Position numbers and translations under genes: made by a program. Below are positions 14,426 to 39,909 of a DNA stretch of 42,648 bases, piece by piece. Each line of letters starts with the position of its first letter. The first letter of the stretch is position 1. This DNA is from Thermoleophilia bacterium (GTDB lineage Bacteria; Actinomycetota; Thermoleophilia; Gaiellales; Gaiellaceae): positions 1 through 42,648 of the forward strand of contig JAICYG010000002.1 of assembly GCA_025934335.1 (NCBI GenBank), read 5' to 3'. A model generated the notes under the pieces. It was given only the letters and a program-made list of their open reading frames with translations, searched no databases and was not told the origin of the DNA.

Positions 14426-14718
14426 CAGAGTGAGTATCGCCCGGGCGGCAGCTTCAGCGACAGCTCGACCCGCTTCCCGGGTGCGACGACGCCGAGACCC
14501 GCGATGTGGCGCGCGCCGCGGCGCTGCAGGCGCAGGTCGTGCGGGTCCTGGCCGAAGTTCGCGAGCTCGATCACCGCCGGCCCCGCCTGCACGTGTAGAC
14601 GCGAGAGCGTGAACGAGTACTCGCGTGCCACCACCTGCATCTGCGCGGGCGCGGGCGCGGGATTCGACGCGTGCACGAGCGGCGCCAGCAGGACTCCGGC
14701 GAGGAGGGCGAGCTTCAC
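14362..14718 (-). CDS. Cupredoxin/plastocyanin-like secreted protein
   Basis: Signal-like N-terminus VKLALLAGVLLAPLVHASNPAPA and type-1 Cu ligand pattern W-C-SVAN-H-RQLG-M. Confidence 0.78.
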   Translation of the reverse strand: MKLALLAGVLLAPLVHASNPAPAPAQMQVVAREYSFTLSRLHVQAGPAVIELANFGQDPHDLRLQRRGARHIAGLGVVAPGKRVELSLKLPPGRYSLWCSVANHRQLGMRATLIVSRR

Positions 14719-16070
14719 TTGACGAGCGTCGGCCGCGCGAACGACTTCGCGTGCGGGAGGATGCGCTCCGCGTCGAAGGAGAGCCACTGCTCGAGCAGGG
14801 CCGCGTACACGCCGCGGAAGTCGGAGGTCGCCTTCAGGTTGCCGTCCTCGTCGAGGCCGCCGGCGAGGCCGGGGAACTCGCCGACCTGCGTTCCGGCGGC
14901 GTGCGTGCCGATCAGGAAGCCGGTCCCGGCCGCGCCGTGGTCGGTGCCGCCCGACCCGTTCTCCTTCGCGCGGCGGCCGAACTCCGTCCAGACGAGCGTC
15001 AGCACGCGGTCGGCAACACCGCGCGCCTCGAGGTCTCGCTGGAACGCGTACAGCGACGCGGCCGTCGTCTGCAGAGCCGGGCCGAGCGCCGAGACCTGCG
15101 ACGCGTGCGTGTCGTACTCGCCGGTCGCCTCGAGCGCGACGCACCGCAGCGGCAGCCCGGCGGAGATCATCGCGGCGAGCCCCTGCAACCGCTGCGGGAA
15201 CGAGTCGCCCGTCGGATACGGCACCGCCGGTGCGGGAATCTTGTCGCCCGCGAACGGCGCGAGCTGCTTGCGGAGCGTCGCGGCCTGCGCCGTCACGCTC
15301 GCGGCGGTGCGCATCGCCGCATCGTCCCCGCCGACGCGGCCGAGGAGGCCGATCGCGTCGAGCATCCGGTCCTGCACCTCGCCCCACACGCCGGGCGTCC
15401 AGAAGTCGTACTCGCCGGGGCCGTCGATCGCCGCGACCGGCACCTTCGCCGTCGCGAGCGCCGGCTGCAGCGACCCCGTCAGCGAGAGCCCCTGCAGCGG
15501 GTTGTCCTTCGTGCCCGCGACGTCGAGGTAGCGGCCGAGCCAGCCGGTCAGGAGCCGCGTGTCGGTCGCACCCACCTCCCAGAAGTGGCGCGAGGTGAAA
15601 TGCGACTGGTCGGGATGGTCGTAACCCACCGCGGGCAGCACGCTCACCTTGCCCTCGCCGTGGAGCTGCGCGAGCGGCGCGAGCGCCGGGTGCCAGGAGA
15701 GGGACGCGTCCTCGGCGAACGGCGTGCCGCCGCTGACGGCGAGGTTCGGCCGCAGCTTCCGGTAGAGGGGGTCGGCCTGCGGCGAGAGGAGCGTGAGCGC
15801 GTCGGCCCCTCCCTGCAGGAAGACGGTGACGAGGATCGGCTGCTGCGGCGCGCTCGCGGCGGCGGCGATGCCCTCGTCGAAGATCCCGAGCCGGCCCGCG
15901 CCGTACACCGTCAGGGCGAGCCCGATCGAGCGCGCGACGAAGCCGCGGCGCGTGAGCCCGGTACCCGCGGGCATCGGCATGCCCGCCTCGATCGCCGGCA
16001 GGCCCTGCCCCGCGACCGCACGGAAGAGATCCGCGCGCGTGCACTCGTCGCAGACGACGCGACTGCTCAC
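14715..16070 (-). CDS. DUF1501 domain-containing protein
   Basis: TRRGFVARSIGLALTVYGAGRLG, LVTVFLQGGADALTLLSP, VWTEFGRRAKENGSGGTDHGAAG. Confidence 0.88.
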   Translation of the reverse strand: MSSRVVCDECTRADLFRAVAGQGLPAIEAGMPMPAGTGLTRRGFVARSIGLALTVYGAGRLGIFDEGIAAAASAPQQPILVTVFLQGGADALTLLSPQADPLYRKLRPNLAVSGGTPFAEDASLSWHPALAPLAQLHGEGKVSVLPAVGYDHPDQSHFTSRHFWEVGATDTRLLTGWLGRYLDVAGTKDNPLQGLSLTGSLQPALATAKVPVAAIDGPGEYDFWTPGVWGEVQDRMLDAIGLLGRVGGDDAAMRTAASVTAQAATLRKQLAPFAGDKIPAPAVPYPTGDSFPQRLQGLAAMISAGLPLRCVALEATGEYDTHASQVSALGPALQTTAASLYAFQRDLEARGVADRVLTLVWTEFGRRAKENGSGGTDHGAAGTGFLIGTHAAGTQVGEFPGLAGGLDEDGNLKATSDFRGVYAALLEQWLSFDAERILPHAKSFARPTLVK

Positions 16071-16137
16071 AGAGTCCCGCTCCGGCGCGGGCGGAGCCCG
16101 TGCCTCCGCTCCTTGATGAGCTCCGTCGAGCCTACGC

Positions 16138-17475
16138 TCATGAGGTCTGCAGGTCGGGGGACACGGCGATCAGCTGGCGGAGCGCGTTCTCGACGAGCAC
16201 CGGGTACTGCACCTGCTTCCAGCGCTGCGAGCCCGCCTGGCGCAGCGACTCCTTCGCGAACTGGAGCAGCGCCCGGTTCGTCGCATCGGAGAGCTGCGGG
16301 TTGCGCCAGAACGCGAGCGCGCGCTTCAGCACCGTCTGTGCGTCGGCCGGCGCCTTGCCCTTCGACGGGTCGAGCCGGCGGTCGTTCAGGAGCTGCGCGA
16401 CGCCGATCCATCGCCCGCGGAACGTGGCGGTGTCGAGCCAGCGCGTGTCGTCCCAGCCGGCGACGTTCGGTGGGTAGAAGAGCTGCTGCCCGGCGAGCGA
16501 GCCGATCCAGGCCCACGCGTCGGTGGTGACGCCGGCGCCGATCCGGCGGAGCAGGCCGGCGGTGTGGACGACCGGCGGCTTCGTCATGCGCGGGCCGGTG
16601 TACAGCGCCGGGTGCTTGAGGACGATCTCGAGCACCGGCTTCAGCTCGTGCCCCTGCGTGTATGCCGCCTCGAGCGCGCGTGTCGTCGCCGCGTTCGGCG
16701 GCACCGGGATGAAGTAGCCCCACAGCTTCTGCACGAAGAACGACGGGTGCTTCGGGTTGGAGAGGCACAGCCGGCACGCATCGCGCCACGCATAGCGGCC
16801 CGAACGGTGGAACACCGTCTTCGTCCCCGGGTCGTGCCGCATCGCGTCGAAGTGGAAGTCGTAGTCGCCGCGGCCGCGGCTCCAGCGGCTCGTCCACCCC
16901 GTCAGCGACCGTGCCTGCTCGCGCACGTCGCGCTCGGTGTAGGCGCCGCGGTTCGCGCCGAGCGTGAACAGCTCCATCATCTCGCGCCCGTAGTTCTCGT
17001 TCGGCGCGTCCTTCGTGTTCTCGGTGCCGTTCAGCCAGAGCAGCATCGCCGGGTTCGCCGTCACCGAGAGGAGCAGGCGCTCGAACGACCCGAGCCCGTG
17101 CTTCCGGAAGAGCTCGTTCTGCTGGAGCATCAGCGTCTGGTCGCCGACGCCGGCATTCGACGTCGCGAACCAGTCGTGCCAGACGAGCGCCATCCGCTCG
17201 ACGAGCGGCCGCGACGTGCGCACCATGCGGTCGAGCCACCAGCAGTGGTCGTGGCCCCAGCGATCGGCGGGTGCGAGCGGCCGACCCTTCGAGTCGTGCG
17301 GCCTCGGGCCGACGAGCTTCTCGACGCCGGGGTTGAGGAGCGAATGGACCGCGCCGTCGAGCCCGAGCTTCGCGAGCGCCTTCGCCTCGCCCGGGCGCGG
17401 GCCGAAGCCGGCACGCCAGAGCAGCCGCTCTGCCTGCGGCGCGCCGAACGTGCCCCGGTAGACGGGTGCACCCAC
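16138..17475 (-). CDS. DUF1800 domain-containing protein
   Basis: QAERLLWRAGFGPRPGEAKALAKLGLDGAVHSLL, NENYGREMMELFTLGANRGAYTERDV, NVAGWDDTRWLDTATFRGRW. Confidence 0.9.
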   Translation of the reverse strand: MGAPVYRGTFGAPQAERLLWRAGFGPRPGEAKALAKLGLDGAVHSLLNPGVEKLVGPRPHDSKGRPLAPADRWGHDHCWWLDRMVRTSRPLVERMALVWHDWFATSNAGVGDQTLMLQQNELFRKHGLGSFERLLLSVTANPAMLLWLNGTENTKDAPNENYGREMMELFTLGANRGAYTERDVREQARSLTGWTSRWSRGRGDYDFHFDAMRHDPGTKTVFHRSGRYAWRDACRLCLSNPKHPSFFVQKLWGYFIPVPPNAATTRALEAAYTQGHELKPVLEIVLKHPALYTGPRMTKPPVVHTAGLLRRIGAGVTTDAWAWIGSLAGQQLFYPPNVAGWDDTRWLDTATFRGRWIGVAQLLNDRRLDPSKGKAPADAQTVLKRALAFWRNPQLSDATNRALLQFAKESLRQAGSQRWKQVQYPVLVENALRQLIAVSPDLQTS

Positions 17476-17518
17476 GGACGCCGTATCGGCGCGTCCGCGG
17501 GCTGCCGCCCATCCCCCG

Positions 17519-17953
17519 TTAGAGCAGTTTGCGGAGGAGGACGCGGGACTCGCCGCGTCCGTCGTAGTTCTCGTCGACGCGCTCGACCTCGAACCCGAGC
17601 GCACGGTGGAAGGCGACCGAGCGCTCGTTCACCGGCGAGGTGACCGCGCGGACGACGCCGCGCGGAGCGACCGAGGCGAAGAACCGCTCGTACAGCTCCC
17701 GTCCGAGCCCATCGCCGCGCTTCTCCGGCGCGACGCCGACGAAGTGGATGTAGGCCTCGTCGGGGAACGTCTGCGAACGGAACCCGCAGAGAAAGCCCTC
17801 GATGCTCCCGTCCGCCTCGGCCACGAACGAGGTGTCGCGGAAGTGGACGAAGAAGAGCTTCGGGAGCATCGCCGCCATCGACCGCCCGCCCCACCACTCG
17901 TCGATCACGCCGATCACCTCGGCGTAGTCGGCAGGCTCGGCGTGGCGGATCAC
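17519..17953 (-). CDS. GNAT family N-acetyltransferase
   Basis: MIRHAEPADYAEVIGVIDEWWGG..., VGVAPEKRGDGLGRELYERFF acetyl-CoA motif; GTG start in a TCAC (GTGA) overlap with the upstream candidate selenoprotein. Confidence 0.9.
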   Translation of the reverse strand: MIRHAEPADYAEVIGVIDEWWGGRSMAAMLPKLFFVHFRDTSFVAEADGSIEGFLCGFRSQTFPDEAYIHFVGVAPEKRGDGLGRELYERFFASVAPRGVVRAVTSPVNERSVAFHRALGFEVERVDENYDGRGESRVLLRKLL

Positions 17954-18168
17954 TTCAACGTCGCGAGCACGTCGGCGAGCTCCGGGAACCGCCGCTCGGC
18001 GCGCTTCGAGAAGACGAGCTCGCCGTCGGCGAGCACGTCGAACTGGCTGTTCTCGCCCACGTGCATCTCCGCCTCGTGCCCCAGCCCGTTCAGCTCCGCC
18101 GCGAGACTCGCGGCGCGTCGGTCATAGCCGCTTCAGACCGGGCAATAGAGGATCTCGATACGCGCCAC
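17950..18168 (-). CDS. Candidate selenoprotein, SelW/Rdx family; UGA at 18133-18135 read as selenocysteine
   Basis: Minus-strand translation through UGA: VARIEILYCPV(U)SGYDRRAASLAAELNGLGHEAEMHVGENSQFDVLADGELVFSKRAERRFPELADVLATLK*. Rdx hallmarks on both sides of the UGA (YCxx-U/C, GELVFSK, RFPE). Split at the UGA and so absent from the ORF track. Confidence 0.75.
18097..18115 (-). promoter_or_regulatory. Candidate bacterial SECIS (bSECIS) hairpin
   Basis: Minus strand CGCCGCG-AGUCU-CGCGGCG: 7-bp perfect stem, loop with G in position 2, loop starts 24 nt after the UGA. Confidence 0.55.
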
Positions 18169-18200: not shown

Positions 18201-19172
18201 ATGCGCCTCCTCGTTCTCGGCGGCACGCAGTTCCTCGGCCGCCACACGGTCGACGCCGCGCTCGCGCGCGGCCACGACGTGACCACGTTCAACCGCGGGC
18301 GTACGCGCCCGGAGCTGTTCCCCGACGTCGAGAAGCTGCACGGCGACCGCGAGGGCGACCTTGGCGCGCTCGCCGGCCGTTCCTTCGACGCGGTCGTCGA
18401 CACGAGTGGCTACGTCCCGCGCGTCGTTCGCGAGACGACCGACGCGCTCGGCGACGTCGGGCACTACACCTTCGTCTCCTCGATCTCCGTCTACGCAGAT
18501 CTCTCGACGGCGCCGACGGAGAGCTCGGCGGTGCGCGAGCTCGAGGAACCGACGGAGGACTGGCGAGAGGCATACGGCGAGTTGAAGGCCGATTGCGAGG
18601 ACGTGATCCGCGAGCGGTTTCCCGACGCGTTCGTGGTGCGGCCGGGGCTGATCGTCGGCCCCTGGGACCCGACCGGCCGCTTCACGTACTGGCCCGCGCG
18701 GATCGCGGCCGGCGGCCGCGTGCTCGCGCCGGCGCCGCCGGACGCCGACGCCCAGGTGATCGACGCGCGCGACCTCGCCGGCTGGATCGTGCGAGGCGGC
18801 GAGGGCGGCCTCGCCGGGACCTACAACGCCGTCGACCGCCCGGTGACGCGGGCGACGCTACTCGAGACCTGCCGCCGCGTCGCGCGGTCGGACGCCGAGC
18901 TCGCCTGGGTCGACGGCGAGTTCCTGCTCGCGCAGGACGTCGGCGAGTGGATGGAGCTCCCGCTCTGGCTCGCGAGCCCCGAGTACGCCGGGATGCTCTC
19001 GGTCGATCCCTCGCCCGCGTTCGACGCGGGGCTCGAGACACGCCCGCTCGAGGAAACGGTGCACGACACGCTCGCGTGGGTCGAGCGCGGCGAGGCGCCC
19101 GCCGAGACGGACGCCGGGCTCGAGCGCGCGAAGGAGCAGCGGGTGCTTGACGCCTGGTTCTCGAAAGAGTAG
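18201..19172 (+). CDS. NAD-dependent epimerase/dehydratase (extended SDR)
   Basis: MRLLVLGGTQFLGRHTVDAALARGHDVTTFNRG; YTFVSSISVYADLS. Confidence 0.92.
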   Translation: MRLLVLGGTQFLGRHTVDAALARGHDVTTFNRGRTRPELFPDVEKLHGDREGDLGALAGRSFDAVVDTSGYVPRVVRETTDALGDVGHYTFVSSISVYADLSTAPTESSAVRELEEPTEDWREAYGELKADCEDVIRERFPDAFVVRPGLIVGPWDPTGRFTYWPARIAAGGRVLAPAPPDADAQVIDARDLAGWIVRGGEGGLAGTYNAVDRPVTRATLLETCRRVARSDAELAWVDGEFLLAQDVGEWMELPLWLASPEYAGMLSVDPSPAFDAGLETRPLEETVHDTLAWVERGEAPAETDAGLERAKEQRVLDAWFSKE

Positions 19173-23084: not shown

Positions 23085-23198
23085 AATCGCCGCAGTTCAC
23101 GTCAGTCCGCCGGACAGTGTCAGGGGGGAGCCGGCACGGGCATCCTCGTCGATCGTCTCGGCTCCGCGCATCAACCAGAAGGGTGATTTGCGCCGGAG

Positions 23199-23289
23199 CG
23201 GAGAAGGAGGGATTCGAACCCTCGAGGCAGGGATTTCCCCACCTAACGCCTTAGCAGGGCGCCGCCTTCAGCCACTCGGCCACTTCTCC
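23199..23289 (-). tRNA. tRNA-Ser (anticodon GCT)
   Basis: Minus strand GGAGAAGTGGCCGAGTGGCTGAAGGC...CTGCTAA...GGTTCGAATCCCTCCTTCTCCG; acceptor GGAGAAG/CTTCTCC, long variable arm. Confidence 0.96.
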
Positions 23290-23322
23290 GGGCGCGCGCA
23301 TCGTACCGCAGTGCCCCGGACG

Positions 23323-23350
23323 CGAAAGCCCGCGCGAAGGCGGGCTTTCG
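23323..23350 (-). terminator. Hairpin/terminator between tRNA-Ser genes
   Basis: CGAAAGCCCGC-(GCGAAG)-GCGGGCTTTCG, 11-bp perfect stem directly 3' of tRNA-Ser(GGA). Confidence 0.55.
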
Positions 23351-23356
23351 GCGAGG

Positions 23357-23445
23357 CGGAGGGAGAGGGATTTGAACCCTCGACGCACCTTTCGGCACGT
23401 ACGCGATTTCCAGTCGCGCTCCTTAGACCGCTCGGACACCCCTCC
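23357..23445 (-). tRNA. tRNA-Ser (anticodon GGA)
   Basis: Minus strand GGAGGGGTGTCCGAGCGGTCTAAGG...CTGGAAA...GGTTCAAATCCCTCTCCCTCCG. Confidence 0.96.
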
Positions 23446-23459
23446 GAGCGGAGGCCATC

Positions 23460-23912
23460 CTAGCCTTCGCCGCTTCGCGTCCCCATCGGCTCGACGGACG
23501 CGTTCGCGGGCACGTGCTGCACGGCGACGGTTCCCTCGACGTAGTGCTGCGCAGCGGGCCACGGCGCGAGCACGAGCACGAGCATCGAGTCCTCGAGCGC
23601 TCGGACCGCGTGTCGCTCGCCCGGATCGAAGGTGACGACGGAGCCGCCACCGCACTCCACCGACTCGCCGCTCGCCTCGACGGACACGCGTCCATGGTGG
23701 ACGTGCACGACCGCCCGCTCCCGGACGTGGTGCTCGCCCATCGCCTCGCCGGCGGCGAGCTCGATCACCACGACGCGGCACTCGGGCGCGCTGAAGAGCA
23801 CGCGCGGGATCTGTCCGTCGCGCCGCGGCACGCGCGGAGCATCCGACCCCGGCTCGCGCGGCGTCTGCTTCTCGGTCGACGGAGGCAGCGAGCTCAGGTC
23901 CCAGCGCTTCAC
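23460..23912 (-). CDS. Cupin domain-containing protein
   Basis: AAGEAMGEHHVRERAVVHVHHGRVSVEASGESVECGGGSVVTFDPGERHAVRALED. Confidence 0.85.
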   Translation of the reverse strand: MKRWDLSSLPPSTEKQTPREPGSDAPRVPRRDGQIPRVLFSAPECRVVVIELAAGEAMGEHHVRERAVVHVHHGRVSVEASGESVECGGGSVVTFDPGERHAVRALEDSMLVLVLAPWPAAQHYVEGTVAVQHVPANASVEPMGTRSGEG

Positions 23913-23943
23913 GGCCGGGAAGGCTAACGACTCGCACGCGCAC

Positions 23944-23974
23944 AGGTGTCTGACACCAGTGGTGTCAGACACCT
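23944..23974. repeat. 31-bp perfect inverted repeat (15-bp arms, 1-nt centre) built from two GGTGTCNGACACC palindromes
   Basis: AGGTGTCTGACACCA-G-TGGTGTCAGACACCT. Confidence 0.9.
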
Positions 23975-23983
23975 CGGACGATA

Positions 23984-24072
23984 CGGAGGGGGAGGGATTT
24001 GAACCCTCGATCCGCCTTGCGACGGATAACGGTTTTCGAGACCGCCGCATTCGACCGCTCTGCCACCCCTCC
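23984..24072 (-). tRNA. tRNA-Ser (anticodon CGA)
   Basis: Minus strand GGAGGGGTGGCAGAGCGGTCGAATGCGGCGGTCTCGAAAACCG...GGTTCAAATCCCTCCCCCTCCG. Confidence 0.96.
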
Positions 24073-24096
24073 GAGCGGGCGCAGTGTAGCCGTCGC

Positions 24097-29828: not shown

Positions 29829-30149
29829 TCAGTTCAGCCAGGGCGCCAGGAAGCCGGCGATCTCCCGCGAGCTCCGCGGCGACTCGAGCCGCGCGCTGAC
29901 GGACTTCCCCTCGATCACGACCAGCGTCGGCGTGAGCGCGACCCCGAAGCGCTCGAGCAGGTCCGGCCGCTCCTCCTGCGCGACGGAGTAGTAGGCGAAC
30001 GTCTCGTGGTTCTGCCGTCGCTGGAGCACCTGCGCGAGGTAGGCGTCGACGCGACGACACCGGCCGGACACCCGGGAGTGGAAGTACACGAGCCGCGGCT
30101 TCTGGATCAAATCGCGTCCCGATGTTTCCTTCATCTGGCCGGTGTTCAT
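29829..30149 (-). CDS. Thioredoxin-fold protein with SxxC instead of CxxC
   Basis: RLVYFHSRVSGRCRRVDAYLAQVLQRR...FGVALTPTLVVIEG (cis-Pro TPT). Confidence 0.72.
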   Translation of the reverse strand: MNTGQMKETSGRDLIQKPRLVYFHSRVSGRCRRVDAYLAQVLQRRQNHETFAYYSVAQEERPDLLERFGVALTPTLVVIEGKSVSARLESPRSSREIAGFLAPWLN

Positions 30150-39763: not shown

Positions 39764-39822
39764 CTCGCGACTGTTGATCAGTCGGCCGCACGATCGCAGC
39801 CGTCGATGAGAGGCCGATGAGG

Positions 39823-39909
39823 CGGCGGGGGTGGGATTCGAACCCACGGAGCCCTCGCGGGCTCAACGACTTTCAAGGCCGCCCTATTCGACCGCTCTAG
39901 CACCCCGCC
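39823..39909 (-). tRNA. tRNA-Ser (anticodon TGA)
   Basis: Minus strand GGCGGGGTGCTAGAGCGGTCGAATAGGGCGGCCTTGAAAGTC...GGTTCGAATCCCACCCCCGCCG. Confidence 0.96.

Follow-up and report, generated by a model that had tools for sequence, protein, structure and literature searches.

Evidence for a SelW-like selenoprotein with a conserved in-frame UGA and a covarying SECIS-type hairpin in the actinobacterial order Gaiellales

A short gene on the minus strand of a contig from Thermoleophilia bacterium (Gaiellaceae; assembly GCA_025934335.1, contig JAICYG010000002.1) almost certainly encodes a SelW-like selenoprotein of the Rdx family, with a predicted thioredoxin-like fold. A hairpin just after its in-frame UGA, together with SelA, SelB, SelD and tRNA-Sec, would direct selenocysteine (Sec) to this codon, and the residue would complete a redox centre. 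The window means here the whole stretch of DNA analysed, positions 1 to 42,648 of the contig. Readthrough of the UGA, Sec insertion, redox activity and a physiological partner are what we infer from the sequence. The original prediction had listed the gene as a candidate selenoprotein, and this proposal gains support from the machinery genes, the conserved UGA, the SECIS-type hairpin and the absence of decay in relatives. The features are as follows.

17950..18168, minus strand: putative SelW/Rdx-like selenoprotein gene, 72 codons, GTG start, UGA as codon 12, terminal TGA
18133..18135, minus strand: in-frame UGA, the putative Sec codon, in a TGA column conserved in 83 of 83 loci
18133..18144, minus strand: predicted CxxU redox motif Cys-Pro-Val-Sec, with Tyr, Cys and Sec columns invariant in the alignment of relatives
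18097..18115, minus strand: bacterial SECIS-type hairpin, with 5' stem 18115-18109 (CGCCGCG), loop 18108-18104 (AGUCU) and 3' stem 18103-18097 (CGCGGCG)
17519..17953, minus strand: GNAT acetyltransferase ORF (Pfam Acetyltransf_1, 52.8 bits), whose GTG start overlaps the terminal TGA of the Rdx gene

The minus-strand translation of 17950-18168 reads VARIEILYCPV*SGYDRRAASLAAELNGLGHEAEMHVGENSQFDVLADGELVFSKRAERRFPELADVLATLK*, with a single internal stop. The original prediction had described a frame of 72 codons with one UGA and a terminal TGA, and the translation of 18168-17950 agreed with it exactly. The internal TGA (18135-18133) is the fourth position of the CxxU motif (context Y-C-P-V-U), which lies near the N terminus. 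This had been recognised as the place of the second redox Cys of Rdx/SelW proteins, and the relatives bear it out: TGA stands at the CxxC column in each of the 83 loci examined closely, 74 of them distinct. The frame with its internal TGA is confirmed at the sequence level as more than chance, because it matches the Rdx family at 6.3e-11, the TGA column is identical in 83 of 83 loci and synonymous change is dominant after the UGA. The GTG is a plausible start, since ATG or GTG lies 10 or 11 codons ahead of the UGA in 59 of 74 genes, the window gene among them. A divergent epimerase-like gene begins at 18201, and 32 bp separate its start codon from that of the Rdx gene.

At the 3' end the terminal TGA (17952-17950) does overlap the GTG (17953-17951) of the GNAT gene, as had been noted. 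The suggestion that an operon with GNAT is itself notable did not hold as a conserved arrangement: of the 67 loci whose downstream sequence exceeds 500 nt, only the window has GNAT beside Rdx. We thus rejected the pair as a conserved operon or unit. Just downstream of the GNAT gene, DUF1501 and DUF1800 genes lie side by side (14715-17604, minus strand).

If Cys is put in for the UGA, the product is a match to Pfam Rdx (PF10262) with 42.8 bits (gathering cut-off 22.6, E 6.3e-11). Two NCBIfam SelT/SelW/SelH models gave significant E-values with scores below their cut-offs (TIGR02174, 33.3 against 34.2; NF041051, 48.9 against 88). The AlphaFold model (pLDDT 94.8, pTM 0.82) predicts a SelW-type thioredoxin-like fold. 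Its top PDB match was the SelW-related protein of Vibrio cholerae (2p0g_D, E 7.6e-6, query-normalised TM-score 0.83), followed by other bacterial SelW-related structures; mouse SelW, 2npb, had a TM-score of 0.69. The predicted fold would therefore be common to the window protein, mouse SelW and the SelW-related Cys proteins of Vibrio cholerae (2p0g), Pseudomonas (2obk/2oka) and Streptomyces (SAV_2001, 3dex). At about 26% identity over the aligned part, 2p0g has Cys at the column where the window gene has UGA. Elsewhere in the window (29829-30149, minus strand) we observed a small thioredoxin-family protein (PF00085, 27.8 bits), in which SGRC replaces an obvious CxxC near the N terminus.

How is the redox column occupied across different taxa? 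Rdx matches were detected in 70 of the 129 genomes of the order Gaiellales. Of 74 order-level matches, 73 have a single in-frame TGA as their only stop, so that the scattered decay which would speak for pseudogenes is absent; the 74th match is a 31-residue fragment starting past the site. The redox column is UGA in every case covered within the order, and outside it the column holds UGA or Cys. In the wider class and phylum the family occurs in Sec and in Cys form, with TGC or TGT at the column in the 18 Cys homologs inspected, and these Cys forms are single uninterrupted proteins. After the UGA, outside the hairpin, pN/pS was 0.32 in 15 close pairs, which were picked by protein similarity, somewhat lowering the value; at the sequence level this part of the gene is under purifying selection. 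A tblastn search of the protein against a plasmid collection gave no match.

Two further observations concern the distribution of the Sec form. In family f13, genomes G523 and G543 of one genus (L142 and L136) have Cys and have not kept the hairpin, and the other genomes of f13 that were inspected have TGA; this looks like a recent Sec-to-Cys change, as the sequences suggest. Three records (L060, L061 and L062), titled Candidatus Eisenbacteria, Acidobacteriota and Gemmatimonadetes, also hold UGA-containing Rdx genes with similar hairpins, so it seems that the Sec form is not confined to Actinomycetota.

The hairpin loop begins 24 nt past the UGA, and 21 nt past it in a second group of relatives. 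Among 74 distinct sequences the loop is RGUCU in 68 (AGUCU in 57, GGUCU in 11), and all seven stem pairs are kept in 64. Stem cells were paired in 97.4% of cases, against 87.2% in shuffled alignments and at most 62% with the partner slid; double-sided stem changes numbered 35 cells against 6.5 in shuffles, and the covariation score of 0.291 fell to 0.112 in shuffles and to no more than 0.071 with sliding. Since the hairpin sits in coding sequence, synonymous-codon shuffling was also applied to the 74 sequences, and the observed 6.82 of 7 stem pairs compared with 5.28 under shuffling (z about 15). The Ser codon of the loop is AGU in 58 of 59 cases; among Ser codons elsewhere in the same genes it is AGU in only 7 of 218. 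Given no structure, RNAalifold returned the same hairpin with six pairs, the innermost being the A-U or G-U pair that closes the loop.

A matching loop was found in 70 of 74 and 25 of 35 Sec homologs, and in none of the 18 Cys homologs. As evidence that the hairpin is there for Sec insertion, and not for the sake of the protein, this contrast is the strongest we have. Several Sec-type Rdx genes from other actinobacterial families (L138, L146, L147, L159, L167, L173-L175) have no RGUCU loop in this register; in several of them a hairpin stands in a different register, which may be a second SECIS type of the phylum.

The original prediction had pointed to a SECIS downstream of the UGA as a thing to look for, and the hairpin found there fits the bacterial SECIS model besides covarying across the 74 relatives. 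That model has an apical loop of 3-9 nt with G in the first two positions, then G or U (bSECISearch, summarised in PMC13188914), a possible N1-N2 closing pair (A-U) and a distance of 16-37 nt from UGA to loop (PMC13188914). The window hairpin satisfies all its loop and spacing rules. It differs from the consensus in its very uniform sequence (RGUCU in 68 of 74), common also to two FdhA hairpins of the same genome. The whole window was scanned for TGA followed, in an open frame, by an RGTNT-type hairpin of 5 bp or more, and the Rdx site alone came up; a stricter scan (7 bp or more) also found one site, where 60 Markov resamples gave 0.1 on average. An Rfam search near the UGA gave nothing, even with E up to 1. 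With a covariance model built from the hairpin, which includes Rdx-specific sequence, the Rdx site of the own genome scored 62.5 bits and the next best site 23.4. Further genes sharing the element were sought with this model; six weaker matches (L108-L111, L116, L120) were examined, and none looked credible as a selenoprotein gene.

The machinery for Sec was sought in the same assembly, a MAG of 2.5 Mb in 226 contigs that is 70% complete, and selA, selB, selD and tRNA-Sec were all found. Each of the three protein genes exceeds its curated cut-off. The tRNA-Sec is 91 nt long, scores 54.6 bits with Rfam (over the cut-off) and is called tRNA-SeC, anticodon tca, by ARAGORN. On contig C58 the end of selA, selB and tRNA-Sec are adjacent. 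The selA gene consists of two contig-end pieces (C160, at the L009 end, and C58, L010), which overlap by 198 nt at 84% identity. As these sequences stand, two related strains are probably mixed in the bin, or it holds two selA copies; with an identity of only 84% in the overlap, some of the machinery may belong to a second related strain. In G062, a relative from the same family, selA appears as two adjoining matches on a 3.28 Mb contig (G062:C1:1901018-1902291), possibly split by a frameshift. The window itself has four tRNA genes, all tRNA-Ser (gct, gga, cga, tga; 23198-24073 and 39821-39909 minus), and these score 36-47 bits with the same tRNA-Sec model. Matches of 83-90 nt to this model look like tRNA-Ser and were left uncounted.

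Across the 129 genomes, Rdx and selA occur together in 54, Rdx only in 16, selA only in 25 and neither in 34 (Fisher p 5e-5, a test that ignores phylogeny and MAG gaps). Either selA or tRNA-Sec is present in 58 of the 70 Rdx genomes. The remaining 12 lack detectable selA and long tRNA-Sec, which we tentatively attribute to MAG gaps; only one of the 12 has a selB match over the cut-off.

Formate dehydrogenase would be a second Sec client. Two FdhA contig-end fragments of the own genome (C162:6-332, L152, and C60:1-510, L154) each carry a single TGA, placed at the Sec position (...DSCNRTUHAPSVVGL... and ...NQARIUHSSTVPSLGN...), followed 18 nt past the UGA by the hairpins CGUCGUC-GGUCU-GGCGACG and UGCCC-AGUCU-GGGCA. 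They were found through the protein and not through the covariance model, because of the Rdx-specific sequence in the latter. Judged by sequence, these fragments are further selenoproteins of the same genome. Because they carry the same loop class, the SelW-like gene appears to be one Sec client among several, and a single type of loop seems to be recognised by SelB in these bacteria.

On this evidence the mechanism would run as follows. Sec-tRNA(Sec) would be made with SelA and SelD and carried by SelB; SelB would bind the AGUCU-loop hairpin, whose loop lies 24 nt after the UGA, and selenocysteine would be delivered at codon 12 in place of termination. The resulting Cys-Pro-Val-Sec would be a thiol/selenol redox centre, and the protein would act as an oxidoreductase forming a selenenylsulfide.

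Could the TGA instead be a Cys codon altered by mutation or misread in sequencing, so that the gene is dead or wrongly read? A nonsense mutation or base error would indeed look like a single stop in a short ORF, in one genome. However, the same column is TGA in 83 loci from many independent assemblies, other stops are absent, and purifying selection (pN/pS 0.32) acts past the stop; by these independent relatives the idea is already refuted at the level of sequence, and we give it almost no probability. It is just as improbable that the UGA is a real stop dividing two short genes, or a short peptide and a downstream-initiated protein. ORF callers do split the frame, and split genes are possible in bacteria, but in the predicted model the UGA falls within one compact domain, after the first strand and the Cys of CxxU and ahead of all the rest. 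The Cys versions elsewhere in the phylum are uninterrupted single proteins, and a real stop would account for neither the hairpin nor the AGU bias nor the Sec machinery.

Readthrough by itself would leave the amino acid unidentified, and UGA might stand for another residue than Sec, such as Trp or Cys, either by reassignment throughout the genome or through a near-cognate tRNA. TGA nevertheless serves as the ordinary terminator in the Rdx gene itself and in many relatives; the genome has a tRNA-Sec whose anticodon is UCA, together with selA, selB and selD; the hairpin accompanies UGA and not Cys codons; and FdhA has the same arrangement at a known Sec site. Reassignment or near-cognate reading is thus also extremely unlikely, and a selenoprotein with Sec at codon 12 is our preferred explanation.

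SelW-like selenoproteins as such are already known. In the Sargasso Sea set they were the most abundant family, with 48 genes (PMC1088965); a bacterial survey (PMC1794560) listed them for Symbiobacterium among others and gave Sec-using bacteria few Cys homologs or none, and a review of 2022 lists Rdx with CxxU (PMC9312934). The gene described here resembles these known proteins (PF10262; PMC1088965, PMC1794560) in family, in CxxU and in a bSECIS right after the UGA. What sets it apart from the known set is that 70 of the 129 genomes of a single actinobacterial order have it, with TGA in every copy that covers the site. In the literature searched, no dedicated paper on selenoproteins of Gaiella or Thermoleophilia was found, judged by titles and term counts; two papers contain both terms, as passing mentions. 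The original prediction had taken both the presence in this lineage and the operon with GNAT as new; the first part stands, and the second does not (one of 67 loci). What is new is thus the widespread, Sec-only presence in the order Gaiellales.

Beyond the single gene, we consider it fairly probable that Gaiellales have kept the SelW-like protein only in Sec form, in about half of genomes, that the hairpin has constrained the coding sequence (RAASLAA or NAAGLAA, in which one codon is fixed as AGU or GGU), and that the SelW-like and FdhA mRNAs share one RGUCU loop recognised by SelB. The finding of the SelW-like gene reveals nothing new about the mechanism; its value lies in its extent and in the uniform RNA signature. 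Nature offers a clean experiment here, in that Sec copies have the hairpin and Cys copies lack it, and selenoprotein mining gains a practical signature in the near-uniform RGUCU loop. Standard gene calling splits or drops the gene, which would therefore be missed across much of an actinobacterial order. Selenium supply would be tied to these bacteria through a small redox protein besides formate dehydrogenase. If this wider interpretation is true, the lineage has its own SECIS signature for finding further selenoproteins, and selenium dependence is a widespread and overlooked trait of these soil actinobacteria.
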